Virus record (IMG/VR): IMGVR_UViG_3300026094_000032
Coordinates: 1-27,355 of that record
Reading direction: 5' to 3' (one strand)
Source of the DNA: a virus
Length of the DNA: 27,355 bases
A program made the position numbers and the translations under genes. Below the pieces are notes generated by a model, which saw only the letters and a list, made by a program, of their open reading frames with translations, was not told where the DNA came from and did no database searches. Below are positions 1,241 to 24,041 of this stretch, in pieces (the first letter of the stretch is position 1; each line of letters begins with the position of its first letter).

Positions 1241-1490
1241 GATGACCGATATCCCCAAGGTAAAGAGAGATCTCAAACAGTATCAAGAAGCAATCTCTGC
1301 TATACCAAACAATCATGTGCGGCAAATGGCGCAAAAACTTCTAGACGATCTTGTTTACGAATTCAAAATGATAGACAATGGTCATGCAAGTGAATATGAT
1401 GGTAATATACAACCTAAAGATCTTAGAGACAACGTTGTTAAATCTGTCGAACTGAGACGTGAATTAGAAAAATACGTTAAGATTAGATAA
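1230..1490 (+). CDS. Small conserved-looking helical protein, function unknown
   Basis: An 86-residue protein from ATG 1230, which has an AAGGGA ribosome site six bases upstream. An in-frame TTG at 1191 would add 13 residues but lies deep inside the cupin gene and lacks such a site. The product is charged and predicted mostly helical, with the landmarks DIPKVKRDLKQY, MIDNGHASEYDGNI and LRDNVVKSVELRRELEKY. From memory, small proteins of this style recur in marine T4-like phages without known function. It overlaps the end of the cupin gene by 11 bases. Its stop (1488-1490) overlaps the convergent tail-fibre stop (1483-1485), leaving no room for a separate terminator. Confidence 0.7.
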   Translation: MLPKMTDIPKVKRDLKQYQEAISAIPNNHVRQMAQKLLDDLVYEFKMIDNGHASEYDGNIQPKDLRDNVVKSVELRRELEKYVKIR

Positions 1491-3570
1491 CAGACAGACG
1501 TTTTAATTCGATACCGCCTACCATAGACGCATGGCTTAAACACTGATATCTATAGGTTCCGAATATTGTTTCTAGTATCCTCCAATACAGTGTTCCAGAA
1601 TCCTTTCCCTGCGCATTAGAGCCGGTAGAAACATTACCACTTGCATCTACATGAACAAGACCATCTGTGAGATTATTTCCTTCTGAATCTTGAATAGCAA
1701 AGGGATGCCCTCCAATTTCATCTAGATCAAATGCAACTGTAGAGCCAGACAGCGCATATATTGTTGGATTCGCGCCGGAGTAGTGCGGAGCGAATGTATA
1801 AGAGCCAGTACCTACGTTATTCACTCTAAACATCAAAAGAGCCGGCTCGTATATTTTGTCTACTGTAAGTCCTGCAGCATTTGTTTCTGTAAGACTAGCA
1901 AATGATGTTGCAGAACTCTGTTGATCAATTGTAAGAGTATCTCCGCTAACACTTGTTGTAATTCCGGTGCCGCCTGCTATTGTAAGAGTATCTGTTATAG
2001 AATCTGCAGTGGTTGTACCTGAGTCTCCCACAATAGTAGCAAATACATTTTGGTCTGGATCGCCGCCTGTACCTTGTACTGTAACAGTGGTAAAGGAAAA
2101 ATTACCTAATCCATCTGTAGTCAAAACCTGTCCGTCTGAGCCATCTGAAATGTTTAAGTCTAATAGTGATTGAGGTATAGAAGGCTTATTTATAAGATCG
2201 TTGTAATCTTCTGAAAATGCCTCAGACTCGCTTACTGCATCGGTAATTCCGTATCCCGACAGAGTAGTGGGGGTTGAAGTTAAATCACTAAATGTAACTG
2301 ATGTAAGGGCTCCAATTCCCTCTGCCGTAGGCGGAGTAAATCTAAAAATACCTACCGTGTCGTCATAGGTTATAGCGCCGTTGCCTGCTGGCGATAATTC
2401 ATTTCCCACACTTATGTCTGATAATAATAAAACATCCGGAGTGTTTGTAAAATTATTATAATCAAGATAATAAGAACTGTCGAATCCGTCAAGTGTATCA
2501 GCATCAAGCCCAGCTCCGCCTTCAGCTATATCAGTACCTGGTGCCCACTTTGCACCGTCCCACTTGAGAACTTCGCCTGTTTGAGGAGCACTGGTTGTTG
2601 TATCAACATCAGAAAGAAAGTCAATCGAAAAACTATTCAAATTTACAGTAATTTGATTGCTGTCTGTAACAGATTCAGTAGATATGTTTTCTCCGCCTAA
2701 AACACTTAGTGTGGTAGTGTTAGCTGCATCATACGAGCCGTCATCTGTTTCAACTAGATCAAATGTAGTCGTGCCTCCGGAACTTCCAGTTTGATCTACA
2801 AATGTAAAATTGCCGGCACCGTCTGTGGTTAGGACCTGTCCAGATGTGCCGTCGTCAATATTAAAATCTAAAATAGATTGAGGAGTACCTTCTAGGTCAG
2901 AATAGGCATTTGAATAAGCCGCTGCGCCGAGCGGGTTATTATACCCTGCAGATTCAACATCGGAATGGACAGTGTCTGTAAGCAGTTTTCTCCAGGCGCC
3001 TGCGTGAGCATAATATAGAGCACCTGTCTCATGCACATGCATTGTCATGCCATGATAAACACCTGCGTCATAGTTGGCAAGATCTGATTCTAGTTGTATG
3101 GCATTAGCGTATTTAATTATGTTGTTGCCAAAATCCCAAGTACCTTCGACCCATTGTAATTCGTCTGCAGTGTCTGCTTCGTATGGTATCGATGAGGCTT
3201 CTGCAAGATTTGCAACTGGAACCCACTCGGCTGCGTGAGCAAAATACAGCCTACCTTCGGAGTGTACATGAGCAATCATGCCATGATAGGTAACAGGATC
3301 TACTTCACTTTCAAGATCGGTAAGTGTGTCCCAGTGAAAGCGTATACGATTTTTTTGGCTTTGAATGTCTATCTGCGCTGCTGGCAGTATGTTACCAAAA
3401 TCTGATCTTGCAATTTCGAAGCCGCCTATATCTTTGCCTGAATAAACCCTAAGACTATTTGTTTCGCTATTAAAGAATACTTCGCCACTGTTTCCGCTAT
3501 TCCGTGACAGGAAATCAGCAGGACGAGGAATAATTCTTATTCTATCTACAATAGGGGCAAAATTTGACAT
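1483..3570 (-). CDS. Tail fibre protein with C-terminal cupredoxin-like domain
   Basis: A 695-residue fibre-type protein. The start ATG at 3570 has AAAGGA six bases upstream. The N-terminal part has collar motifs seen in phage fibres (GEVFFNSETNSLRVYSG). There are two copies of a YHGM..HVH..G.LY.AHA.AW module near residues 95-120 and 170-195, two copies of DG..GQVLTTDG.GNF.F near 240 and 480, and repeated YNDL..KP-type linkers. The last 120 residues look like a cupredoxin: GHPFAIQD supplies His622, and the YRYQCLSHASMVGG segment supplies Cys677, His680 and Met683, the four ligands of a type 1 copper site. The gene stands alone behind its own late promoter. The adhesin or host-recognition role is inferred from architecture, and copper binding is untested. 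Confidence 0.85.
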   Translation of the reverse strand: MSNFAPIVDRIRIIPRPADFLSRNSGNSGEVFFNSETNSLRVYSGKDIGGFEIARSDFGNILPAAQIDIQSQKNRIRFHWDTLTDLESEVDPVTYHGMIAHVHSEGRLYFAHAAEWVPVANLAEASSIPYEADTADELQWVEGTWDFGNNIIKYANAIQLESDLANYDAGVYHGMTMHVHETGALYYAHAGAWRKLLTDTVHSDVESAGYNNPLGAAAYSNAYSDLEGTPQSILDFNIDDGTSGQVLTTDGAGNFTFVDQTGSSGGTTTFDLVETDDGSYDAANTTTLSVLGGENISTESVTDSNQITVNLNSFSIDFLSDVDTTTSAPQTGEVLKWDGAKWAPGTDIAEGGAGLDADTLDGFDSSYYLDYNNFTNTPDVLLLSDISVGNELSPAGNGAITYDDTVGIFRFTPPTAEGIGALTSVTFSDLTSTPTTLSGYGITDAVSESEAFSEDYNDLINKPSIPQSLLDLNISDGSDGQVLTTDGLGNFSFTTVTVQGTGGDPDQNVFATIVGDSGTTTADSITDTLTIAGGTGITTSVSGDTLTIDQQSSATSFASLTETNAAGLTVDKIYEPALLMFRVNNVGTGSYTFAPHYSGANPTIYALSGSTVAFDLDEIGGHPFAIQDSEGNNLTDGLVHVDASGNVSTGSNAQGKDSGTLYWRILETIFGTYRYQCLSHASMVGGIELKRLSVI

Positions 3571-3689: not shown

Positions 3690-4268
3690 GTGAGTGAAGA
3701 AATTTATCCTATGAATCTACAAATTATCGATGACTGCATACCTGAATTTTATCAAGATTACTTCGAAGCACTATGTCTAGGAAAAACCAAAGGGTGTGAA
3801 ATAGAAAATGGGTTGCCTTGGATGGCAAAATATGAAGGTACTGCTCGTAGAGACGGTGTAACTCCACTAAGTTTTAAACATATACTAAAAAGTGATGCAG
3901 AATTCTCATCTCATTTTGTTAATTTTAGTACTATACCTGTAAGTGTAGTCAATCAATTGGGATATGCGCTAAACCAAATTATGTATGCAAGATCTTTTTT
4001 GACAACTCCGTATGACACAGATTTACAAAATCACGCTCCGCATGTTGATTTAAATTTTCATCACACAAGTTTAATATATTATGTAAATGATGCAGACGGC
4101 GATACTGTATTTTATAGCAATAATTATAAAAATATAATTAATAGCATCACACCAAAGAAAGGAAGATGTGTAATATTTGATGGCCTTATACCACACGGTG
4201 CAGGAATTCCTAAATTGGGTCCAAGATGTATTGTTAATTTTAATTTAATAATAGGGGATAATAATTAA
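3690..4268 (+). CDS. 2OG-Fe(II) oxygenase superfamily protein
   Basis: A 192-residue protein with the full facial triad of the 2-oxoglutarate/Fe(II) dioxygenase fold: H118-V-D120, distal H169 in LIPHGAG, and R179 ten residues later for the 2OG carboxylate. These enzymes couple decarboxylation of 2-oxoglutarate to hydroxylation or related oxidation, and the substrate is unknown. It is closer in layout to prolyl-hydroxylase-like phage proteins than to DNA dioxygenases. The GTG start at 3690 has no good ribosome site. ATG 3711 (MNLQIIDD) is an alternative giving 185 residues. It overlaps the parvulin gene by one base (TAATG), so the two are coupled. Together they form a plus-strand island between minus-strand blocks and look AT-richer than the fibre genes. 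Confidence 0.85.
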   Translation: MSEEIYPMNLQIIDDCIPEFYQDYFEALCLGKTKGCEIENGLPWMAKYEGTARRDGVTPLSFKHILKSDAEFSSHFVNFSTIPVSVVNQLGYALNQIMYARSFLTTPYDTDLQNHAPHVDLNFHHTSLIYYVNDADGDTVFYSNNYKNIINSITPKKGRCVIFDGLIPHGAGIPKLGPRCIVNFNLIIGDNN

Positions 4269-4597
4269 TGGATAAAGTTAGATGTAGTCATATATTGTTA
4301 AGTCACGAAGATGCAATCGAGTCAACTCACTCTCGAGAACTTTATTTTGCTATTTTTGATGCTAAACAAATTATTGCAGAATTATCTCGCGGAGGGATTT
4401 CTTGGGCAACTGCTGTCAAGGAACATAGTGCATGTCCACATAGCTGGTACAAAGATGGTGATTTAGGATGGTTTGACCTTAATGACGGAGTTGTACCGGA
4501 ACTATATCTTTCGGTAAAATCGGCACCAAAAGATCAATTGTTAGAAGAACCGATACAAACTCCGTATGGCATCCATATATTAGTCAGAACTGGTTAA
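4268..4597 (+). CDS. Parvulin-type peptidyl-prolyl cis-trans isomerase
   Basis: A 109-residue stand-alone rotamase domain. It starts with VRCSHILLS, has a central DGDLGWFDL segment, and ends with TPYGIHILVR, the three hallmarks of the parvulin/PpiC family in order. Parvulins catalyse cis-trans isomerisation of Xaa-Pro bonds and help fold proteins. No signal peptide or membrane segment is seen, so it should act in the cytoplasm. The ATG shares one base with the stop of the preceding oxygenase. Its stop overlaps the convergent stop of the neighbouring minus-strand gene within the palindrome TTAA (4594-4597). A role as folding catalyst for phage virion proteins is inference. The pairing with a hydroxylase-like enzyme suggests a shared protein target. 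Confidence 0.9.
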   Translation: MDKVRCSHILLSHEDAIESTHSRELYFAIFDAKQIIAELSRGGISWATAVKEHSACPHSWYKDGDLGWFDLNDGVVPELYLSVKSAPKDQLLEEPIQTPYGIHILVRTG

Positions 4598-4926
4598 TCT
4601 AATTCATTATCAATAGTAAAAGAAGTTAGCTTCCCGACTAAACTATCATTATCCCTATTTCTATAACTTTTTACTCCGTTGGGGGTAGTAGGATCATCGG
4701 CTAATTTTTCTTTTTCAGTGAGTTCTTCTTCTGTTTGTCCTGCTTCAAGTTGTATATCTAAAATCTCACATCCTTTATTTGGATGATTTTCTTGTATCCA
4801 CTTTTCGGCATTTTCTCTAATTACAAATTTTCTAATTTCTTCGTAACCATCACCGTCTGGGTCCCATGTGTGCCAAACTTTAACATGTGAATGTACCGGA
4901 TGAGGTTTTTTAATTGCAAATGGCAT
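4594..4926 (-). CDS. Small acidic protein of unknown function
   Basis: A 110-residue protein that I do not recognise. The ATG at 4926 has AGGAG six bases upstream, overlapping the TAG stop of the HAD gene, so it is the last gene of the modification operon. The N-terminal half has VWHTWDPDGDGYEEIRKF, which could make a small mixed sheet. The spacing DPDGDGYEE resembles a calcium-binding EF-hand or dockerin loop, but there is no paired helix pattern to support that. The C-terminal half is Glu/Lys-rich (AGQTEEELTEKEKL) and probably flexible. No signal peptide or membrane segment is visible. Its position with the oxygenases suggests an accessory role, which is speculation. Confidence 0.75.
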   Translation of the reverse strand: MPFAIKKPHPVHSHVKVWHTWDPDGDGYEEIRKFVIRENAEKWIQENHPNKGCEILDIQLEAGQTEEELTEKEKLADDPTTPNGVKSYRNRDNDSLVGKLTSFTIDNELD

Positions 4927-4935
4927 TGTTATCTC

Positions 4936-5493
4936 CTATAGTTCTTCTGCAAAAGCTTGCAACGAATCAAATACGTATGCTGAGCGCTTAATGTTCTTGT
5001 ATGTATATTTATTCAAATCTTCTTCAGTCTTTAATCCGTAACCTGTTCTAACAAGCACAGGCCTCGCCCCTATTTTTACTGCTGCTTTTAAGTCTGACAT
5101 TTGATCGCCTACATAAAAACCATTTTTCCAATTTAGATCAGAAATATTTTTCTGACTTAATTTAAACATACCGGTATTTGGCTTAGCGTAGGTGTCTCGT
5201 TTATCGCTACTTTCGCTGTAATATATTCCGTCTATGTCAGGACAACCTGCTTTGCCTAGTAAATTTAACATCTGATCGTGAACAGCATCTACGTCCTCTG
5301 TTGTCATGAAACTCTTTTGTATGCCGCCTTGATTTGAAATAATAACTACTCCATAACCTTTTTTTCTAATTGTAGCTATTGCTTCTAAGCTACCAGAGAT
5401 TGGTTGAAAGTCTTGAGGATGCGTAACATAACCTAAGTCTTTATTTATAGTGCCGTCTCTATCTATACCTACGAAGATTTTTTTACTCGTCAT
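4936..5493 (-). CDS. HAD-family phosphatase, GmhB/HisB-N-like, without zinc loop
   Basis: A 185-residue HAD hydrolase of the histidinol-phosphatase/heptose-bisphosphatase group. Motif I is D11-R-D13-GTIN, motif II is S53 in IISNQGG, motif III is K104 in AKPNTGMF, and motif IV is G129-D130-QMSD134. Known relatives dephosphorylate D-glycero-D-manno-heptose 1,7-bisphosphate (ADP-heptose synthesis) or histidinol phosphate. The usual Cys-rich zinc loop before the KP motif is absent. That stretch reads YYSESSDKRDTYAKP, so the substrate may differ. The gene overlaps the upstream oxygenase by 11 bases. A GT9-like transferase starts the same operon, so a heptose or related sugar link is tempting, but no other heptose-pathway enzyme is visible here. 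Confidence 0.88.
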   Translation of the reverse strand: MTSKKIFVGIDRDGTINKDLGYVTHPQDFQPISGSLEAIATIRKKGYGVVIISNQGGIQKSFMTTEDVDAVHDQMLNLLGKAGCPDIDGIYYSESSDKRDTYAKPNTGMFKLSQKNISDLNWKNGFYVGDQMSDLKAAVKIGARPVLVRTGYGLKTEEDLNKYTYKNIKRSAYVFDSLQAFAEEL

Positions 5494-6064
5494 ATGTATA
5501 CCATCCGGTGATAATATATTTGTAGCCTGTGTAAATCGGATTACCTCTATGCGGAAATAAAAAGCTAGTAGGAAATAATACTAGTTTACCTTGTTCGGGT
5601 TTAAGTTTAACACCTTGGTATAAGAATTCTGTTTCACCACCTTCGTCTATGTCGTTGAGATATAGCATGTAATTTACTATACGTGTAGAACTACTTTTAT
5701 CAGATGCTTCGGCATGCCAGGCATGAAATCCTTCATGTGGGCCTGTTCTTTGTAAACTCATTCCTTTTGGACTATGTTGTGCTCCGTGCTTTAGCATAGA
5801 ATATTTTTCAATATAATCTTCTATATAAATCTGATTAATTGTTTGGTAGAAATGATCGCACAGATTATAGTCATAATGATAAACCTTTTGGGTGTGTGCC
5901 CAGTCAAAGACAATTCTGTTATCTGTAACAAACCCATGTCCTCGATTGTTAGGTTTGACAATATCTCGTCGAGCCATTACTTCGAAATGTTTAATAATTT
6001 CTTCGCAATATTGCGGTTCAAATGCGTTAGGATATTCTTCTATTCCCGAGTAAAGTTCGCTCAT
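5483..6064 (-). CDS. Prolyl-4-hydroxylase-like 2OG-Fe(II) oxygenase
   Basis: A 193-residue single-domain oxygenase. The metal site reads H117-A-E119 inside GFHAWHAEA with distal H172 in LFPHRGN, so Glu replaces the usual Asp. Lys182 stands ten residues after the distal His where most relatives have Arg. Collagen-type prolyl 4-hydroxylases also use Lys to hold 2-oxoglutarate, so this member is the best protein-hydroxylase candidate in the cluster. The core strand NYMLYLNDIDEGGETEF is typical of the PKHD/P4H group. The start has AAAGGAG just upstream and overlaps the stop of the SGNH gene by 4 bases (ATGA). Whether it modifies proline, another residue or a small molecule is unknown. Confidence 0.88.
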   Translation of the reverse strand: MSELYSGIEEYPNAFEPQYCEEIIKHFEVMARRDIVKPNNRGHGFVTDNRIVFDWAHTQKVYHYDYNLCDHFYQTINQIYIEDYIEKYSMLKHGAQHSPKGMSLQRTGPHEGFHAWHAEASDKSSSTRIVNYMLYLNDIDEGGETEFLYQGVKLKPEQGKLVLFPTSFLFPHRGNPIYTGYKYIITGWYTYDE

Positions 6065-6873
6065 TTTCTCTCCTTTAAATAAGTTATGTAGTCTCTTGCA
6101 ATAAGGTCGTGTACGTAATAGTTATAATGTTCGGGGTCGACTTTTTCTTGATCAAGAGAATTATCTGAATGTTTTTGCAAATACGTTAGTGCGTCTTGTT
6201 GTGCAAATGTTGTTTGTGTTAAATCTGTATAGTATCCGTCGACATTGTCTGGAATAAAACACCTATCATTAACATTCCAAACATGTAACGGAATATTTCT
6301 TTCTCTGCAGAGCATATCCATGAACGTTATATCTTTCATGTAATCCTGCTGTTCTAGATGTGTTTGATTGTAATGCCACATCTTAACATACAAATATGCA
6401 CTGCGTCTAATGTCAGGTTGCCGAGTGATAGTAGTATCTTGCATATACTGAAAATCGTCCCAGTCTGACGGTTCTACTTTTAAATATTGTTCTAGATATT
6501 TTTTCTTTTGTACTAATCCTAATTGGTATCTTTTTATTAGATTGTTACTCAAATCTTGTTCTATAAAAAAGTCTAGCGGATAAATTTTCTGTTCATCTAA
6601 ATCTGGATTAATTGCTATAGGAAATCTGCCCCAATAAGTTGACTGTACAAAAACTTCGTCAATATCATCGTAGTGCCTTAATGCATGTGCTAAAAAATTA
6701 GGATACGCTCTATTACCGCACCCTGCACTTGCCATAACTATTATTTCTTTATCGTTTATTTGAGAATAAATTTCTGCATAATTATTTTCCTGCCAGACTT
6801 GTGCAGGAGTATCTAAACTATAATGTTTGTAGCCCATACTATGACTACACCCGATAAAGAGAGTTTTACTCAT
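6061..6873 (-). CDS. SGNH/GDSL-like hydrolase
   Basis: A 270-residue protein with scattered SGNH blocks. Block I is FIGCSHSMG with Ser10 as nucleophile, and a Gly/Asn block is SAGCGNRAY with Asn54. A DPEH segment (Asp247-His250) near the C-terminus matches the DxxH catalytic pair. The second candidate His is H256. The superfamily includes esterases, lipases, carbohydrate O-acetylesterases and O-acetyltransferases. No signal peptide is visible, so it should work inside the cell. It overlaps both neighbours by a few bases (ATGAGTAA upstream, ATGA downstream) within a run of oxygenase genes, which suggests action on the same product, for instance adding or removing an acyl group. The superfamily is fairly safe and the reaction is unknown. 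Confidence 0.75.
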   Translation of the reverse strand: MSKTLFIGCSHSMGYKHYSLDTPAQVWQENNYAEIYSQINDKEIIVMASAGCGNRAYPNFLAHALRHYDDIDEVFVQSTYWGRFPIAINPDLDEQKIYPLDFFIEQDLSNNLIKRYQLGLVQKKKYLEQYLKVEPSDWDDFQYMQDTTITRQPDIRRSAYLYVKMWHYNQTHLEQQDYMKDITFMDMLCRERNIPLHVWNVNDRCFIPDNVDGYYTDLTQTTFAQQDALTYLQKHSDNSLDQEKVDPEHYNYYVHDLIARDYITYLKERK

Positions 6874-7414
6874 GCCATGTTACCTCAAAATCAAATACCA
6901 TTACACGTCTCTCGTCTAATGTAGGATATGCTCCGTGCCAGATTCGAGAATCCATAACTAGCAATTTTCCTTGTTGCGGTTGCCACCATTCTACATACGT
7001 TTCCCCTAATTCGTCTTGCAATATTGCGTAGAATGCTCCTTCATCATTTGGTTGATCTTCAATATTATCGAAATATAAAACTGCTGTGCATCCTGTTTTA
7101 CCTTTAGCGTGGTTATGTAATCCTTTCCAGCCGCCTGGGTAATATCTAATACTCCAAGTCTGTATATGTGTATGCAGTTCGCATGGAATTTCACCTTTCT
7201 TTAATAGATTATTTGTTGTTTCTATGATAAAGTTAGCTATGTCTTTGGTTTCTTCAGTTGTATGCGGAATCTGGTATCCGTTAACTGTTGTGCTTATTCC
7301 TGGCGTCACTATATTAGGATGATCAGCATTTAATAATACCTCATACTCTTGCCACATAGGAGCATATGTTTCAACTATCCACCTATTATTCGCTATGTAT
7401 ATAGTATCATTCAT
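6866..7414 (-). CDS. 2OG-Fe(II) oxygenase-like protein with HxH motif
   Basis: A 182-residue member of the phage oxygenase group. The metal region is GWKGLHNHAKG (H100-N-H102), followed by a CTAVLYFD strand, distal H160 in DSRIWHGAY, and R169/R170 for 2OG. The second ligand position is His, where classical enzymes have Asp or Glu. This occurs in the PF13759-like family as I recall it, so it is probably a subfamily trait. The substrate is unknown. It overlaps the genes on both sides by 8 bases (ATGAATGA upstream, ATGAGTAA downstream), a clear sign of coupled translation. Confidence 0.8.
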   Translation of the reverse strand: MNDTIYIANNRWIVETYAPMWQEYEVLLNADHPNIVTPGISTTVNGYQIPHTTEETKDIANFIIETTNNLLKKGEIPCELHTHIQTWSIRYYPGGWKGLHNHAKGKTGCTAVLYFDNIEDQPNDEGAFYAILQDELGETYVEWWQPQQGKLLVMDSRIWHGAYPTLDERRVMVFDFEVTWHE

Positions 7415-8015
7415 TGTCTTGTACCGGCGTTATTACAAAATTTGCTGCAATACTCGCTCTTAGATTTTCTGACTTGCTAGGTAAAACATAATGTGAAATC
7501 CAGCTAGGAAACAATATCAGTGTTCCTCTTTCCATTGGAGGAATAATATGCTGATAATTATATGCGTTAAATATTCGATCTAAACCAGAGCTTCTAATCA
7601 TTTGAAAATTAGGACATTCAAAGACTAGTTGGCCGCCGGCGTCTTCGTCGTCGGGGTATTCTAACAAGTATATTAAACTAATACCCCTTCCTGGAAATGC
7701 ATGATCGTGGGGTTCTTGATAATCACTTTTGTTGTATACGTTTAACCAATGCTCGTCACATATAATTTTATAAGACATCTGCGGATCTAAAGATTCTAAA
7801 AAACTATTCAAGTGCGGCTCGATCGAATTGAAAAAAGAACTCCACGGAAGAGAATCATTTTGTTTTCCACTTCTAATTGTAGTTTTAGCCTGCGCCATCG
7901 TCCAATCACCGTTTGAAAACAACGCTGAATCGTTAAAAAACGGAGACCATTCATCTAAAATTTCTCTTGAATTTTCAAGTTTAGCCGAGTAAAAATATGT
8001 CGCCCATAAGCTCAT
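7407..8015 (-). CDS. 2OG-Fe(II) oxygenase, PF13759-like (HxH)
   Basis: A 202-residue protein with a clear late-barrel signature: WLNVYNKSDYQEPHDHAFPG carries H103-D-H105, the strand ISLIYLLEY follows, and LILFPSWISHYVLPS carries distal H175 with R186 in LRASIAANF. This matches the layout of the 2OG-FeII_Oxy_5 family (PF13759), common in marine phages and their hosts. As in that family, His stands where Asp is usual. The first 80 residues form a helical N-terminal region without recognisable motifs. The ATG directly abuts the stop of the upstream gene. The substrate is unknown. Confidence 0.87.
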   Translation of the reverse strand: MSLWATYFYSAKLENSREILDEWSPFFNDSALFSNGDWTMAQAKTTIRSGKQNDSLPWSSFFNSIEPHLNSFLESLDPQMSYKIICDEHWLNVYNKSDYQEPHDHAFPGRGISLIYLLEYPDDEDAGGQLVFECPNFQMIRSSGLDRIFNAYNYQHIIPPMERGTLILFPSWISHYVLPSKSENLRASIAANFVITPVQDNE

Positions 8016-16883: not shown

Positions 16884-19800
16884 TTATCTCAAGTAGTAAT
16901 TGAAAGCTAGCGGTTGTCCGAGGACTGCACCTTCAAATTTTACGTTTGCTCGTATATTTATCTGTTCGCCCGACACAGTAGTAATCTGATTAGTGTTAAT
17001 AAACACATCGCCGGCCGTTACAGAGTTAACATTTAGACTGGCGCCGCCGCCGCCGATCTGTGCTTCAATGAATGCTTTAACTGCTCGCTGTGTAGGAACA
17101 ACGTTATCAGAGTTCGCAGTAAAGAACGGATCTGTTGAGAACTCGCTGATTGCTGCGGAGTTTCCGCCTAGTGTAACCTCACCTAGTGATAGTTCCTGTA
17201 AGCCTGCAATGTTAAATGCTTCTGCATCAAGTGTGGCAACGCCAGTAGCCTGTTCTATTGAGAACAGATTACCTACTCTGAAGTTACCATCTTGGTCTGT
17301 GGCTGTAAAGAACACCCTGCCGCCGTCGAACTCATTGGTTTCTTTATTGGCGTCTGGAGCATTTACAGGTATTCCAGGATAATTAGTATCAACAAAGTTA
17401 CCAGTACCAATATCAAGGAAATCATGACTGGATGCACGTACCTGACTGTATCTTATTCTTAGTGTCACTCCGTCGCCGTCCTGAGGAGCATCTGTTATGC
17501 TCATTTCAGGTGATAGCTGCAAGAATGCTGTAAATGAACCTGGATTTTCACCTATAAATGACACCGTATTAACCAGTTTGAATACCTGTCCAGGCAAACT
17601 ATCAAACACAATGTTTGAACCATTTACTGGTCTTGCAGAAAGCTGTTTTACAGCAACAAAGCTGCCGTCCTGGAAGAAATCAGCAAAACCGTTTGAGTTT
17701 GTGTCGTTAATTTCTGCAGATGCAGTAGTAAAGGAAGATCCTCTAGCAACAAATGTTGGATTAGCAATTGAACCGTTACCTAGTCTAACTGCAAGCTCTA
17801 CAGGCTCAATATTGTTAGGATCAAATATCGAAATTTCAGGGGCAGTATCATAGTTACTGCCAGGCTCTTTTAAACGTACTTGGAATAACTGTTCGTTTGC
17901 TACACCTGATCTACCTTGAGCTCTTGCACCTATTTCTGCAACAGAAACTGTGGTTGTAGGAGCGCTTGCACCAACAACCAAGAACTGATGATTGAGATTA
18001 GGATTACCATGAGCAACTGCGTTATAACCAGCAGCTTCTGCTCCTAGGGTAAATAGCTCCCAAAGAACGCCGTCTTCTGAATAAGCAATAGAATTGTCGT
18101 CTCTAGTTGCGACAAAGATGCCTTGTCCATATGATAGCTGACTATATACTCCTCCTGTCGGAAGACTGGTTTCGAACCATTCAATGCCATCTATTGAATA
18201 CACAGCAACATTAGTATCATCGGCTATAGCAACAAATCTGCCATTGCCCCATTCTACATCTATCCATGCAGCAGTTGTACCGATTGTAGCAGTTGTCCAT
18301 GTTAAACCGCCGTCTTCGGAATAATAGGCGTTCTCACTTCCTCCTTGCAGTGCCATAAACCTACCTTTACCATGAGTAAGAGCAGTAACGCCTGTAGCTG
18401 GTAATACACCTGACTGAATAGTCCAGCTAGCACCGCCATCTGTTGAAGTGCTAACGTCGGTTGCTGTAGAATTGGTAATCAAAAATTTGTTATCGCCCGG
18501 CGAAGGTTGTCCGAACGCAATTTTGATTGTGCCTGATCCTATTCCGCTGTCAGCTGATTCAAATGTTTCAGCGTCCGAAGAATAGTTTACAGTTCCGTCT
18601 GCAGCAGCAATTACCAATGCAGATGGCTTAAGTAAACTCGAACCGTCGTCTAAAAGACCGCTTGCTGAATCAACCCAACTGGCTGAAGTAGCTAGTGTAG
18701 TAGAAGAATAGTTTAAACCTTCTGTGCTCACCTGTGCTGTGCTGCCACTAGACGGAGTAATAACAAATACACCCTTCTGTGCTAAACCATCAAAATTAAA
18801 ATCTATAACAGATCCGTTTGTTTTGTTGATAGTTGTAATTGTTACCGTAATATCATTGAGAGGACTTGTGCCTCCTAACAAATCACCTGATATCGTAACA
18901 GTATCTAATCTATTATACCCTTCGCCGGCGTTGTTAAGAGTCACATAGTATTTTGAACCCACTCTTGTTACGTCAAAGCTTGCTTGCTCTCCGTCTGAGT
19001 TTGTAGTAGTTGCAACAGCATTATATTGGGCTGCAGTTTCAAAATAGTCTGCAGTAGAATATGTACCTGAAGTAATAGACTCTACTGTTGCAGTCTTAGC
19101 AGGCGCAGTAAAGAATGCTCTCGGCTCTACTTGATAAGTAGAACTTGAGTTAGGAGAACTTATAGGCGTGCCTGGCACAATGTGTTCCCAGCCAAGCTCC
19201 ATTTCAATTGCAGTGCCTGTTCCTGATCCTGCACCTGTCGCAGTGAATATAGTTCCCGGTCTAGGATTAATAAGAGTTTCGTCACTGATACTATCCCAAT
19301 CTGTATCTCCTGCATCTTCAATTCTGTAGATTGTTGAGGTAGTAAAACTTCCTGCTGCAGTTGGAGTATAAGTAGTTGGTCTTACAACCTCTGCTTCTTT
19401 TGAACCCGAATCATAGGTATATACAGTGCCGTATAGTCCGGTAGCAGCACCTGCAGTTACATATACTGACATTCCTGGATAGGCAGAACTTAGATTTCCG
19501 TCAGTAGCAGCAAGGAATATACTAGTAAGACTTCCTGTTTGAGCTGTGTTAGAAATAAGCGTGAATCCACTTCCGCCTGCAGTATCAGGCTCAGTCTCTA
19601 CTATTCTTACCTGTTTGACTGCTCCGTCTCTAAACTCGTCTGCAAGTAACTCTTCACTGTCACCGGAACCAAATATGTCAATTGCAGCTTCTGTGTATCT
19701 ATCACCAGCATGTCCGAATTCTAACTGCAGAATTTGATCTTGATCAGTGAATACGTTTTCTACAGTAGCATTAAACTGTGTTCTATTATCTACAACGGCA

Positions 19801-22800
19801 GTTACTGGCGTTTCTTCTGGATCGACACCTTCTGCAGAGGAGCCAAATGTTCCATATGAATTGTTGCCGTTTGTAGCACGAATTCTTCCGCCTGCTTCTG
19901 CTAGGTAACCCACATGCGAATAATAAGTGAATACAGATACTAGCTCCGCTCTACCGTTGTTTGTGATCCATGCTCCGATGCCGTCTGATATTACCTGTGT
20001 GAAGTCGTTGGAAACAATGGAATCGTTGCCGCCATTATGCAGAGAACCATCAATCTTTTGACCCACAGCAGCAAATCCAAATGTAGATACGTTCTGAACA
20101 TAAGGAGAACGAGCTGTAATATGCACTCTAGTATCGTCCGGACCAAAGCCTGGATCAAGCGATGCATAAGCACCTGCAGTAGGTCTGCTAGTTCCAAATT
20201 CATTGGCTGGTTTAAGATCACCTTTCAACCCGTCCAGCGACATCAGTCTAAGTCCAGTACCGTTTCTAAGATAGAAGAAGTCTTCTTCCTGAGAACCTAT
20301 TACTGAATTGTAGTAGTATCTGCCTGCTAGTTTAGATTTATAAAAACCAGGTCTATATATTGTAACGCCTTCTGTGTATTTTCTTTCCCACTGTTTTGGC
20401 TGTACAAGATCCCATTCAATAGCATTAATGTATTCTCTAAGATCTCTTGCACATATCTCTTCGTCGTACTCGAAATCAGCGCTGACATTTAAAATAAACG
20501 AATATTGTCTATCAAGATATCTCGCAGTTTGAATAGCAATTCCGTCTTCGTTTTCCAGTAAGCTGCGCTGTGCCTTTTGAAGATTTTCATCTGCCCAGGT
20601 CGCTATAGGATATTCTACATCTCCAAGAACAATTAAGTTAAGAGTATTAGCTACATCTCTTGGTATGTCGAGTAAAGTTTCTGCTTTAGTGGCTTCTGCA
20701 GAAGTTGCAGGCGTTCCTGAGAAGTCTTGTGATACTGCAACTTGTAATTCTGTTACATCTGTTTCTACAATTATTTCTTGAATGATTGTTTTTATATAAT
20801 CAAGAGCATCTACTAATGCAGTTTGTTCTGTAGAACCGTCTGTTAGATTACCTTCTTCTGTGTAAATTCTTGCAATTTGTCTAGTAGCACTGTTGCCGCC
20901 ATACATTATATCATATCTTATTGCATCAATAAAATACCCTAGTTCTTCGCTTCTTTGAGCATCGTCGTAAGTTAGTGCTGCATAATTTTGATCAATATAT
21001 GCAATAAATTCTGCTTGCAAGAAGCTTCGATTATTTGTTAGCTGATCCACAGCATTCTGTTGGTCGGTTGTAGAAAGGTCACCTGGAGGTATACTGAGTG
21101 AGTCAGCACTCGCATCTCCGTTTTCTACAATATCTAACACTTCGTTGAATATTGCATTAACTCTTGATAATGCATTTACATCTAGTTTTACAGCTCTTAT
21201 ATCAGTTGCTAATATCTTACTAAAGCCAATACCGTCTAGTGTTTCTGATAGCTGAGTTGCTACGTCTGTACCTGCTGTTCCTCTTCTTACAGCTAATCCT
21301 CTAGTAACAGCATTGTAGTTTGTGTTAAGAACAGCATCCCAACTCGAACCTTCTATAATTAATTGTGTTTCTCTTCTAAAAGATTTTTTATTATAGTCGA
21401 AGGCAGATTGCTGGGGAGTGAGTTCTTCTTCAGTGCCGCCTATAACAGTAGATATTGTAAACGTGTTTTCATCTATAATATCTTTTACAAAATAATTCGC
21501 ACCGTCTTGCAGACCAAAGTCAAAAAGCGTAGATATAGAAGTATTTCTACGAACACTAAATTTAATAGGCATGTTTGCTGTAAGCCAACTTGTGTCTGCT
21601 ATAACTATTGTATTCGTTCCGACTTCTGATACTGCTACATCAAAAAACCATTCATCAACATATGCTTTTGCTTCTTGAACTATAAATTCTTTATTCAATT
21701 CTAGCTGACGCACTGCGTTGTAATTTTCAACAAAATCGACACTACTAACGTTTCCTTCTGAGGATGCGGACCAAATTATATCGTTTACGTATTCCCACGT
21801 AGCATTAACAGTGATTATTGCATCTACTACTCCGTTTACGTTGTTCTTTATTAAGCGGCGGGCATATTCGTTCGCTGCTAGTGTAGCATCTTTCTGCTCC
21901 CCTAACACTTTTTTAGATTCTGCTCTAAGATACGAATATGCTGCTAAAATACCGGCATAATTAGTATCTAGCATCCAATCGTATCTAGAAGCTTCAGCAA
22001 TTAATTCAAGATCGCGTGAACACTTAGCATGATTATATACAAAACCTGAATATTCGTTTGATACAAACTGTATGGCATCTACTACAATAGTATCTGCATT
22101 TGTATCAATAGTGCTCTTGGCAGTCTGAAATTCTGCATCTGCCCAAGTAGTGTCAGGGAATGATATACTCGGAACACCTGTCAGACTTTCGGCTGTTAGT
22201 GCATCCTGTATGATGTCAATATTAAGTTCAATCTGTCCGGCTTCGGTTGCAGTAGCCGGAGAACCTAGTGTGGTCTGTATTTCTGTATTTCCTGACTGTT
22301 CGGCGACGTCCTGTTCCTGAATTACTTCTTTTGTTATATCGCTAAGGTGTTGGTAAGCATCGACTATGTTTGCAATTTCTCCGTTCCAAACAGTTGTATC
22401 TTGAAAGAAGTAAGATTGTAGTAATTTTGTAGCTGCCTGTGTGCCTTGATAAAGAACATCATAGCTGAGAGTTTGTAGTAGATACTCTAGCTCTCTTCTA
22501 TAAAGATCTGCATCATATTCAAATTCGAACCATTTACTTGCTGGATCTGGGCTGTTGACCGTGTTTAACTGAATTTGATTATCAATGTATGCAATTGTAT
22601 CGGCTATTATAAAATCAATGTTTGCTTGAATAAGATTCTTTGCATCTACCCTATCTTGATCAACGCCTGTAGGAGTAGGGTACAAAAGAGTAGGTCTAGA
22701 ATCTCTACCTTTTCTAATAATATCAACTATATTGTTAAAAGAATCGATTGCACGAGTAGTTGCTGTTGTAGAACTAACAAGACCTGCAACTTCGTCGCGC

Positions 22801-24041
22801 ATAAATCTTATTGCACCGACAATAGCAGCTTGATCTGTTTTAAGTATCTCTCTATTATACGCTTTGTCATATACTAACCCGTTTGCAAAACCGTTATAGT
22901 TTGTACCTAGTGCTACATCAAACGCAATGTCTTCTAGAATATTTGCAAAGTCGTCTCTATACTTTGCACTGTCAAAAGTAAATGTACCAAAGTTTTCATT
23001 TATAAAATCAATTGTTTTTTCTTGTATCTCAGGCAGTGCTGCTACTAGAGCATCACTAGCTGCAACTTCTGCGTCAGGTGATTCTACAGTTGAAGGGTAT
23101 GTAATTGCAACAGTGCCAGAACCAGTATCTATAATGGCAATTATATCATTCATTAGTTCAGCTATAACGTCCGAAACTGTCTGAGTACCGCCTGTTCCAG
23201 AAATTTGATCTACGTCAGTTTGAAACACTGGTGTGACTGTTATGTTTCTACCTACAGTCTGTACAAGTGCTTTAAGGTAAGTCAGCGCATCTAGTGTAGC
23301 CTGTTTATCATTTGATCCTATGCCAAAATCTACGCCGTCAAAATAAGCTTCACCTCCATTTACACTCTGCCAATTGCCACCGTAGGTAAGATCATATGCT
23401 ACAGAATCAATTACAAATCCTATATCTTTTTTGGCTTTTGTTCTGCTGTATCTTATACTTGGATATTCTTCTGCGAGATAGGCAATTACTTCTGCTTGTA
23501 TAAACTCTTTGTTGTGAAGGTTGAGGTCTCTACTGTATCCAAAGTTAGGATCATCAAGATCATATGCAGGAGTTAGTTTTGCATCAATTTTGTTTCCAAG
23601 TTCTACATCTATAGTTTTCTTTATATTTCTTGCCAGTCTTGCTGCTTCCGGCGCTACCTGGGGAGCTTCTGCATAAGGCCATGAATCGATCTGAGCAACT
23701 GTGTTTCCAGGAGTAGTTCTGAAGGGAACTCCTTCAACTACATCTCCGATTACATCTTCGATTCTTTCAATCGCAAGAGAGCTGTACTTAAAGTCACTCT
23801 TAGAAGTCAATGTGCTGTTAGATTCTTTTCTTGGCTGAACGTTTGTAGAACGTAGCTCGTCGCCTAATATACAGCATTCTGCTGGCACTATAATCGGCAA
23901 TACCTCTCTATACTGTCCAGTAGATACTTTAATAAGTGTCTTTCTAATCGATCTAGCAGGAACTGCTTCGTCGGTACCGGCTGTAACTGCGTCTGTTACT
24001 ATTTTTCCTAGACTTTCGATTGTCTCAAATATCGTTGCCAT
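16884..24041 (-). CDS. Giant virion structural protein (2385 residues)
   Basis: The largest gene of the window, probably a baseplate or tail-fibre-associated protein. Residues 30-70 (TLIKVSTGQYREVLP, then GDELRSTNV) look like the first turns of a beta-helix. Residues 170-1225 hold seven divergent helical repeats of about 150-165 residues, each with a pattern like C-x-RD-x4-IDA-x2-YD-x3-GGN. An extra beta insert lies between the fourth and fifth. Residues 1225-1800 are beta-rich and fibre-like. Residues 1810-2030 hold Asp-box repeats of a beta-propeller. The last 230 residues carry RYSQVRASSHDFLDIGTGNF, TDQDGNFRVGNLF and NVVPTQRAVKAFIE, and are paralogous to the end of the protein encoded at 26051-27355. 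A strong GGAGGA nine bases before ATG 24041 supports this start. Confidence 0.88.
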   Translation of the reverse strand: MATIFETIESLGKIVTDAVTAGTDEAVPARSIRKTLIKVSTGQYREVLPIIVPAECCILGDELRSTNVQPRKESNSTLTSKSDFKYSSLAIERIEDVIGDVVEGVPFRTTPGNTVAQIDSWPYAEAPQVAPEAARLARNIKKTIDVELGNKIDAKLTPAYDLDDPNFGYSRDLNLHNKEFIQAEVIAYLAEEYPSIRYSRTKAKKDIGFVIDSVAYDLTYGGNWQSVNGGEAYFDGVDFGIGSNDKQATLDALTYLKALVQTVGRNITVTPVFQTDVDQISGTGGTQTVSDVIAELMNDIIAIIDTGSGTVAITYPSTVESPDAEVAASDALVAALPEIQEKTIDFINENFGTFTFDSAKYRDDFANILEDIAFDVALGTNYNGFANGLVYDKAYNREILKTDQAAIVGAIRFMRDEVAGLVSSTTATTRAIDSFNNIVDIIRKGRDSRPTLLYPTPTGVDQDRVDAKNLIQANIDFIIADTIAYIDNQIQLNTVNSPDPASKWFEFEYDADLYRRELEYLLQTLSYDVLYQGTQAATKLLQSYFFQDTTVWNGEIANIVDAYQHLSDITKEVIQEQDVAEQSGNTEIQTTLGSPATATEAGQIELNIDIIQDALTAESLTGVPSISFPDTTWADAEFQTAKSTIDTNADTIVVDAIQFVSNEYSGFVYNHAKCSRDLELIAEASRYDWMLDTNYAGILAAYSYLRAESKKVLGEQKDATLAANEYARRLIKNNVNGVVDAIITVNATWEYVNDIIWSASSEGNVSSVDFVENYNAVRQLELNKEFIVQEAKAYVDEWFFDVAVSEVGTNTIVIADTSWLTANMPIKFSVRRNTSISTLFDFGLQDGANYFVKDIIDENTFTISTVIGGTEEELTPQQSAFDYNKKSFRRETQLIIEGSSWDAVLNTNYNAVTRGLAVRRGTAGTDVATQLSETLDGIGFSKILATDIRAVKLDVNALSRVNAIFNEVLDIVENGDASADSLSIPPGDLSTTDQQNAVDQLTNNRSFLQAEFIAYIDQNYAALTYDDAQRSEELGYFIDAIRYDIMYGGNSATRQIARIYTEEGNLTDGSTEQTALVDALDYIKTIIQEIIVETDVTELQVAVSQDFSGTPATSAEATKAETLLDIPRDVANTLNLIVLGDVEYPIATWADENLQKAQRSLLENEDGIAIQTARYLDRQYSFILNVSADFEYDEEICARDLREYINAIEWDLVQPKQWERKYTEGVTIYRPGFYKSKLAGRYYYNSVIGSQEEDFFYLRNGTGLRLMSLDGLKGDLKPANEFGTSRPTAGAYASLDPGFGPDDTRVHITARSPYVQNVSTFGFAAVGQKIDGSLHNGGNDSIVSNDFTQVISDGIGAWITNNGRAELVSVFTYYSHVGYLAEAGGRIRATNGNNSYGTFGSSAEGVDPEETPVTAVVDNRTQFNATVENVFTDQDQILQLEFGHAGDRYTEAAIDIFGSGDSEELLADEFRDGAVKQVRIVETEPDTAGGSGFTLISNTAQTGSLTSIFLAATDGNLSSAYPGMSVYVTAGAATGLYGTVYTYDSGSKEAEVVRPTTYTPTAAGSFTTSTIYRIEDAGDTDWDSISDETLINPRPGTIFTATGAGSGTGTAIEMELGWEHIVPGTPISSPNSSSTYQVEPRAFFTAPAKTATVESITSGTYSTADYFETAAQYNAVATTTNSDGEQASFDVTRVGSKYYVTLNNAGEGYNRLDTVTISGDLLGGTSPLNDITVTITTINKTNGSVIDFNFDGLAQKGVFVITPSSGSTAQVSTEGLNYSSTTLATSASWVDSASGLLDDGSSLLKPSALVIAAADGTVNYSSDAETFESADSGIGSGTIKIAFGQPSPGDNKFLITNSTATDVSTSTDGGASWTIQSGVLPATGVTALTHGKGRFMALQGGSENAYYSEDGGLTWTTATIGTTAAWIDVEWGNGRFVAIADDTNVAVYSIDGIEWFETSLPTGGVYSQLSYGQGIFVATRDDNSIAYSEDGVLWELFTLGAEAAGYNAVAHGNPNLNHQFLVVGASAPTTTVSVAEIGARAQGRSGVANEQLFQVRLKEPGSNYDTAPEISIFDPNNIEPVELAVRLGNGSIANPTFVARGSSFTTASAEINDTNSNGFADFFQDGSFVAVKQLSARPVNGSNIVFDSLPGQVFKLVNTVSFIGENPGSFTAFLQLSPEMSITDAPQDGDGVTLRIRYSQVRASSHDFLDIGTGNFVDTNYPGIPVNAPDANKETNEFDGGRVFFTATDQDGNFRVGNLFSIEQATGVATLDAEAFNIAGLQELSLGEVTLGGNSAAISEFSTDPFFTANSDNVVPTQRAVKAFIEAQIGGGGASLNVNSVTAGDVFINTNQITTVSGEQINIRANVKFEGAVLGQPLAFNYYLR
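17950..18610 (-). repeat. Asp-box beta-propeller repeats inside the giant protein
   Basis: Four clear Asp-boxes at about 40-residue spacing: STDGGASW (residue ~1866), SEDGGLTW (~1907), SIDGIEWF (~1948) and SEDGVLWE (~1987), preceded by a degenerate SSDAETFE (~1825). Between them, strands of the type GRFMALQG, GRFVAIAD and GIFVATRD repeat. This is the BNR/sialidase-type propeller signature, but the catalytic Arg triad and Tyr/Glu of sialidases are not evident. Confidence 0.75.
20370..23450 (-). repeat. Seven divergent helical repeats in the giant protein
   Basis: Copies centre near residues 210, 375, 525, 690, 900, 1045 and 1210. Examples are KKDIGFVIDSVAYDLTYGGN, SRDLELIAEASRYDW and RSEELGYFIDAIRYDIMYGG. 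Each is preceded by a segment like NKEFIxxExxAYxxxxF. The identity is low but the motif order is constant. An eighth copy lies in the neighbouring 656-residue protein. Confidence 0.75.

Follow-up and report, generated by a model that had tools for sequence, protein, structure and literature searches.

The source record is viral, and the window analysed here, the whole stretch of 27,355 bases, encodes on its minus strand a tail protein of 695 amino acids that ends in a cupredoxin-like domain. The features that concern us are the following.

1483..3570, minus strand: open reading frame of the domain-bearing tail protein, 695 aa, with matches to phrog_677 and phrog_9729
3223..3288, minus strand: HVH-containing repeat 1, residues 95-116, YHGMIAHVHSEGRLYFAHAAEW, a possible second metal motif, read from the sequence and lying in the part matched by phrog_9729 (residues 92-134)
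2992..3057, minus strand: HVH-containing repeat 2, residues 172-193, YHGMTMHVHETGALYYAHAGAW, read from the sequence and recurring in relatives
1486..1875, minus strand: C-terminal cupredoxin-like domain, residues 566-695 (core 580-693), from AlphaFold2, Foldseek, VIA-align and an HMM of its own family
1705..1707, minus strand: His622, predicted first His ligand (GHPF), directly before model strand 59-63; His in 90/93 close relatives
1540..1542, minus strand: Cys677, predicted thiolate ligand, at the end of model strand 106-112; Cys in 91/93 close relatives
1531..1533, minus strand: His680, predicted second His ligand, in the loop preceding the last strand; His in 88/93 close relatives
1522..1524, minus strand: Met683, predicted axial ligand; Met in 93/93 close relatives

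The four ligand positions come from the sequence and the model together, and their codons, read on the minus strand of the frame 1483-3570, are those that the sequence-only reading of this DNA had named. A PHROGs comparison of the tail protein yields E 1.5e-49 for phrog_677 ('baseplate wedge tail fiber protein connector') and E 2.4e-16 for phrog_9729 ('tail fiber protein'), and the cupredoxin-like domain by itself still matches phrog_677 at E 7.4e-21. No signal peptide is evident, and a Pfam search found neither PF07880 (T4_gp9_10_N) nor any other match at the N-terminus. T4_gp9_10_N is present in gp9 of S-SSM5 and P-TIM68; cyanophage gp9 thus has the same C-terminal domain as the window protein behind this N-terminal one, whereas the window protein lacks it, is longer and has fibre repeats. 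For want of T4_gp9_10_N, it is better named a tail-fibre/connector protein sharing the C-terminal module than gp9. The domain had been placed at the tip of a tail fibre; it does end a tail protein, but the matching family, phrog_677, and the relatives in cultured cyanophages (gp9) connect the baseplate wedge with the tail fibre, so that this part of the description has to be loosened.

The surrounding genes comprise more tail-fibre families, 2OG-Fe(II) oxygenases, a carbamoyltransferase, a HAD-type phosphatase and a rotamase. Several of the 2OG-Fe(II) oxygenases are clustered with the HAD-type phosphatase and the PPIC-type rotamase at 3690-8015, adjoining the tail genes. An open reading frame of 2385 aa on the minus strand (16884-24041) adjoins tail-fibre genes, and a plus-strand frame at 439-879 looks by eye like a Nudix hydrolase, with a GLKREIHEEIG box. 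PADLOC gave no match.

We modelled the domain with AlphaFold2 from an alignment (A1) of 43 sequences, the window and related viral loci, obtaining a pLDDT of 94.9 and a pTM of 0.89, and the model is a Greek-key β-sandwich of the cupredoxin type. In the DSSP assignment His57 of the model (His622) stands before strand 59-63, Cys112 (Cys677) ends strand 106-112, and His115 (His680) and Met118 (Met683) lie in the loop ahead of the last strand, 119-126. This is the ligand order of cupredoxins: a His before a strand, a Cys closing the penultimate strand, and a His and a Met in the loop that follows. All 50 Foldseek matches listed from the PDB are cupredoxin-fold copper proteins, namely copper nitrite reductases, laccases, other multicopper oxidases, plastocyanins or amicyanins (best E 3.7e-5, TM about 0.5). 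With VIA-align the best match is Geobacillus NirK (Z 11.3, 2.6 Å over 117 residues), mainly through the second NirK domain, which we take to lack type 1 copper, and this match therefore supports the fold and not the metal site. In a viral library the model matches, among others, cyanophage connectors, the proximal tail fibre of P-SSM2 and a Fadolivirus protein named 'blue type 1 copper protein'. Judged by the strand topology and by the joint ligand losses described below, the four residues do not appear to lie far apart in the predicted fold.

The gp9 of S-SSM5 (L074:5125-6351), in which T4_gp9_10_N is followed by a C-terminal cupredoxin-like domain that neither Pfam nor NCBIfam names above cut-off, was modelled separately from 51 sequences. 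Overall confidence is low (pLDDT 62.7) and limited to the last ~110 residues, which are near 90, and we do not interpret the N-terminal part. The C-terminal part shows the same strand order around His351, Cys394, His397 and Met400, and superposes on the N-terminal cupredoxin domain of Hyphomicrobium denitrificans NirK at 2.2 Å over 93 residues and on rusticyanin at 2.8 Å over 100 residues, with identities of 20-22%.

The kinship with cupredoxins becomes visible through family-level profiles only, since the window domain sequence by itself found no useful match in Pfam, NCBIfam or the PDB. PF00127 (Copper-bind) does not match the window; it matches 20 of 43 relatives weakly, with a best E of 0.0013 that falls short of the curated cut-off, and single members of these 43 match SoxE and Cupredoxin_1. 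The window domain has the amicyanin-type C-x2-H-x2-M loop and gave no match to the amicyanin equivalog TIGR02657, for which one relative scores 14.9 against a cut-off of 110.2, and no cupredoxin call above cut-off came from Pfam, PHROGs or NCBIfam. The HMM of its own family, in turn, recovers the window domain at E 7.9e-45 over residues 580-693 (numbered in the stop-to-stop frame). The close-family profile A1 reaches amicyanin in the PDB at E 1.3, non-significant by itself. A second profile, A2, built from 19 diverse phage domains with no known cupredoxin included, finds NirK (1.1e-5), plastocyanin (3.2e-5) and amicyanin (4.5e-5), followed by rusticyanin, auracyanin, pseudoazurin and azurin; among the 60 matches listed only three are unrelated (antibody chains, E 0.05), unrelated chains starting at E 0.054. 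An hhalign comparison of A2 with 14 cyanophage plastocyanins (E 1.1e-6) brings Cys and His into register and leaves the phage ligand loop two residues shorter.

The ligand set had been called plastocyanin-type, which holds for the order of the residues and fails for their spacing: C-x2-H-x2-M is the arrangement of amicyanin, and the cyanophage plastocyanins compared here have C-x2-H-x4-M. When amicyanin (GTYDYHCTAHPFMRGKVVV) is aligned with the family consensus (GTYRYQCSSHAAMVGAITV), the C-x2-H-x2-M loop is common to both. The amicyanin, plastocyanin, rusticyanin and NirK cupredoxin domains thus resemble the window domain in predicted fold, ligand order and profile homology, and amicyanin has its exact loop besides. 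They differ from it in being periplasmic, thylakoid or surface electron-transfer proteins or enzymes, whereas the window domain ends a virion tail protein and its metal is putative; moreover, the first His is followed by Pro in the window domain and by Asn in the known cupredoxins compared, including the plastocyanins. A Pro in this place does occur in multicopper oxidases (HPFHLHG). For Cys677 we had also considered a disulfide within the domain, which is ruled out because the domain has no other cysteine.

Conservation speaks for the four residues as a unit. The complete H-C-H-M set is found in 88 of 93 distinct close relatives and, after iteration, in 121 of 131 superfamily sequences, including 24 of the 29 that are less than 30% identical to the window; among the 41 superfamily sequences below 40% identity, each ligand column is more than 90% conserved. 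At the cyanophage gp9 loci the set is complete in 80/80, and these loci were retrieved with patterns containing no ligand, whereas some of the close-family retrieval patterns include GHPF and bias the His622 count upwards there. Both synonymous codons are freely used for the His and Cys ligands. It is this ligand conservation, rather than any counting of motifs, that excludes a chance origin of the motif.

The exceptions are equally telling. Three close relatives (L019, L030 and L063) lack both His, two (L053 and L054) lack the Cys and the second His, and none lacks just one of these three residues: each of the five that have lost His680 has also lost His622 or Cys677. Under independence, and ignoring relatedness and the GHPF bias, the coincidence of five His680 losses with five other losses has a probability of ~2e-8. 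A FastTree phylogeny puts the five losers on five separate branches, that of L054 being only 0.05 long and lying beside an intact sister. Ligands lost two at once in five lineages are what is expected of a single metal site. All four ligands are gone from a second copy of the domain in L072, whereas the matches to the second copies in L074 and L157 stop ahead of the ligand loop and are uninformative in this respect. As five close relatives and some second copies keep the family signal without the ligands, the metal is probably dispensable in some lineages. In another variant, a cupredoxin-like copy at L099:3-1205 and L100:3-1205, Gln replaces the axial Met (CHFHTGQG); Gln is the natural axial ligand of stellacyanin.

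These ligand-poor copies (L019, L030, L053, L054, L063 and L072) are what would be expected if the domain were a plain β-sandwich knob that has kept the cupredoxin fold and, as metal-free leftovers, its ligands. We consider this quite improbable, as the ligands are among the most conserved columns of the family even in the 41 most divergent sequences, their His and Cys codons vary freely at synonymous sites, and the losses are joint and not scattered. Fold, profile homology, conservation and joint loss together strongly support the proposed cupredoxin-like domain with all its type 1 ligands, and very probably it is a genuine cupredoxin whose four-ligand site is intact.

The module is widespread in marine phages. 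A tblastn search with the domain matched 258 phage records, nearly all of them marine Synechococcus and Prochlorococcus phages and mostly under gp9, and the gp9 version used as query matched 349. Usually C-terminal and sometimes internal, the module occurs in gp9, in the adjacent large baseplate protein, in another frame near the tail gene (in many IMG/VR relatives), in subtilase-containing proteins and in a YHYH protein. The gp9 annotations that we checked do not name a copper protein. Second, divergent cupredoxin-like frames (for example NQHPLNFS...YYWCxxHxxMG) lie near the tail protein at L077:1292-2767, L083:389-1654, L110:2-1084, L138:464-1891, L146:148-1590 and L153:241-1494, and phages with such a separate frame would thus have at least two proteins of this kind. 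Subtilase- or YHYH-associated modules are found at L164:2264-4324, L165:3125-8309 and L167:3041-4411; a subtilase and the module share one protein in Synechococcus phage ACG-2014e, in S-BM3 the module lies in a protein annotated peptidase S8, and a YHYH domain accompanies the module in Actinomycetia phage DSL-LC01.

Outside phages, a profile scan of genome contigs, starting from a four-sequence alignment, uncovered bacterial cupredoxin-like proteins that carry the same module with all four ligands and have secretion-type N-termini. Among them are a small Acidobacteria protein with a C-terminal anchor, 34% identical to the window (L258), lipoprotein-like proteins of Marivirga (L261-L263) and a Gillisia protein with CHRD domains (L266). 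They differ from the window protein in being proteins of cells, with signal- or lipoprotein-like N-termini or a C-terminal anchor, and some contain CHRD or DUF7282. PF25489, a plant-named family (At5g54830-like), weakly matches L258, L266, L265 and L074 and may point to eukaryotic relatives. The suggestion that the phage domain mimics a copper protein of the host finds no support here: the nearest relatives found in cells are proteins that Bacteroidetes, Acidobacteria and others secrete or carry on their surface, and its similarity to phage-borne plastocyanins is only remote. A recent origin from the phage's own plastocyanin gene (petE) was also considered and rejected, as hhalign of the close family with cyanophage plastocyanins reaches 58% probability over 26 columns and the secreted bacterial proteins align along the whole domain.

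Within the whole S-SSM5 record, PF00127 finds the plastocyanin gene and misses gp9, which illustrates how the module escapes annotation. The same record bears on the idea of a domain that transfers electrons or does other redox work on the virion, for instance with a respiratory or photosynthetic partner of the host during entry. In favour of this idea stand the completeness of the type 1 ligands and the homology with proteins that transfer electrons. S-SSM5, however, already has a separate plastocyanin with a signal-like N-terminus, the window offers neither a redox partner nor an oxidase domain alongside, and the module sits on structural proteins beside fibre modules; with no partner in sight, we regard electron transfer as highly unlikely.

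Metals in phage tails have a precedent in iron. The HxH motifs of the T4 gp37 tail fibre bind iron, and iron-bearing HxH tails have been joined to a Trojan-horse idea of tail function (PMC11705849). The window protein has two HVH motifs of its own, and 19 of the 169 fetched loci contain their wider form, YHGMxxHVHxxGxLYxAHAxxW, in which neither His is ever lost. As a tail protein with a metal site, the window protein would resemble T4 gp37 and the fibre of alterophage R22Y, but the sites of those fibres are His pairs of an intertwined trimer that bind Fe(II) (PMC11705849), whereas the cupredoxin site would be formed by Cys, His, His and Met of a single chain. An analogous use of copper, in which the loaded domain docks as bait on a copper-handling surface protein of the host, gains some plausibility from the published iron hypothesis (PMC11705849) and from the two HVH motifs. 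It is nevertheless very unlikely in our view, because there is no known receptor and the phages with ligand-poor variants presumably still infect.

Which metal the site holds is a separate question, and here zinc is the main rival. Zinc or another metal could fill the same four residues in a purely structural capacity, given that virion proteins fold in a copper-poor cytoplasm. The window protein lacks an evident signal peptide, its family is one of tail proteins assembled inside the host, and the joint conservation of the ligands calls for a metal without specifying copper. Type 1 sites can, moreover, accept Zn(II). Against this, the homologous families found by profile search are copper proteins, and a Met retained in 93/93 close relatives, together with one natural exchange for Gln, is the pattern of type 1 copper and atypical for zinc. 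We therefore think zinc rather unlikely and copper probably the metal in the virion. Because copper is scarce in the cytoplasm that produces virion proteins, the metal may arrive at lysis or from seawater, or else be zinc.

The reading that we favour, with a probability of roughly 0.6, is a true cupredoxin domain with a predicted type-1-like site that takes up one copper per subunit and thereby gives stability to the tail protein's exposed end and shape to its contact surface. On the virion, the domain would form the exposed last module of a tail-fibre or baseplate-connector protein. His622, Cys677, His680 and Met683 would form a predicted mononuclear site on the shortest, amicyanin-length ligand loop, and each subunit would take up a single copper. 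Copper would lock the loop between the last two strands, stabilising the exposed end, and the locked loop could shape a contact surface toward a neighbouring subunit or the host. What the analysis shows is the sequence, the predicted fold, the homology with blue copper proteins, the conservation and paired loss of the ligands and the frequent recurrence of the module in tail proteins; that a metal is bound, that it is copper and that it serves stability or attachment are inferred from these. Granted a cupredoxin site with copper, stabilisation or contact rather than electron transfer is, by elimination, the probable role. Proteomics of S-SM1 virions detected 41 proteins (PMC3037559).

In the open-licence literature, where absence is no proof, we found no earlier description of a cupredoxin module in a phage tail protein. 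Cupredoxins are known and metal-bearing tails are known, and it is the combination of both that appears to be new. A much bolder proposal, which we put forward as doubtful, would be that marine T4-like phages bear genuine type 1 copper centres on their baseplate or tail-fibre proteins and need copper for a step of infection, be it attachment, triggering or virion stability, so that the copper chemistry of seawater would influence their infectivity.

If the site does bind copper, a trace-metal cofactor would reside within the virions of a large class of abundant ocean viruses, and cyanophage gp9, whose C-terminal domain none of the annotations and family libraries that we checked calls a cupredoxin, would gain a property. 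A module with a metal site would then join the known parts of tail proteins, and phage infection would be linked to copper chemistry, as has been proposed for iron. The question is directly testable on cultured cyanophages.
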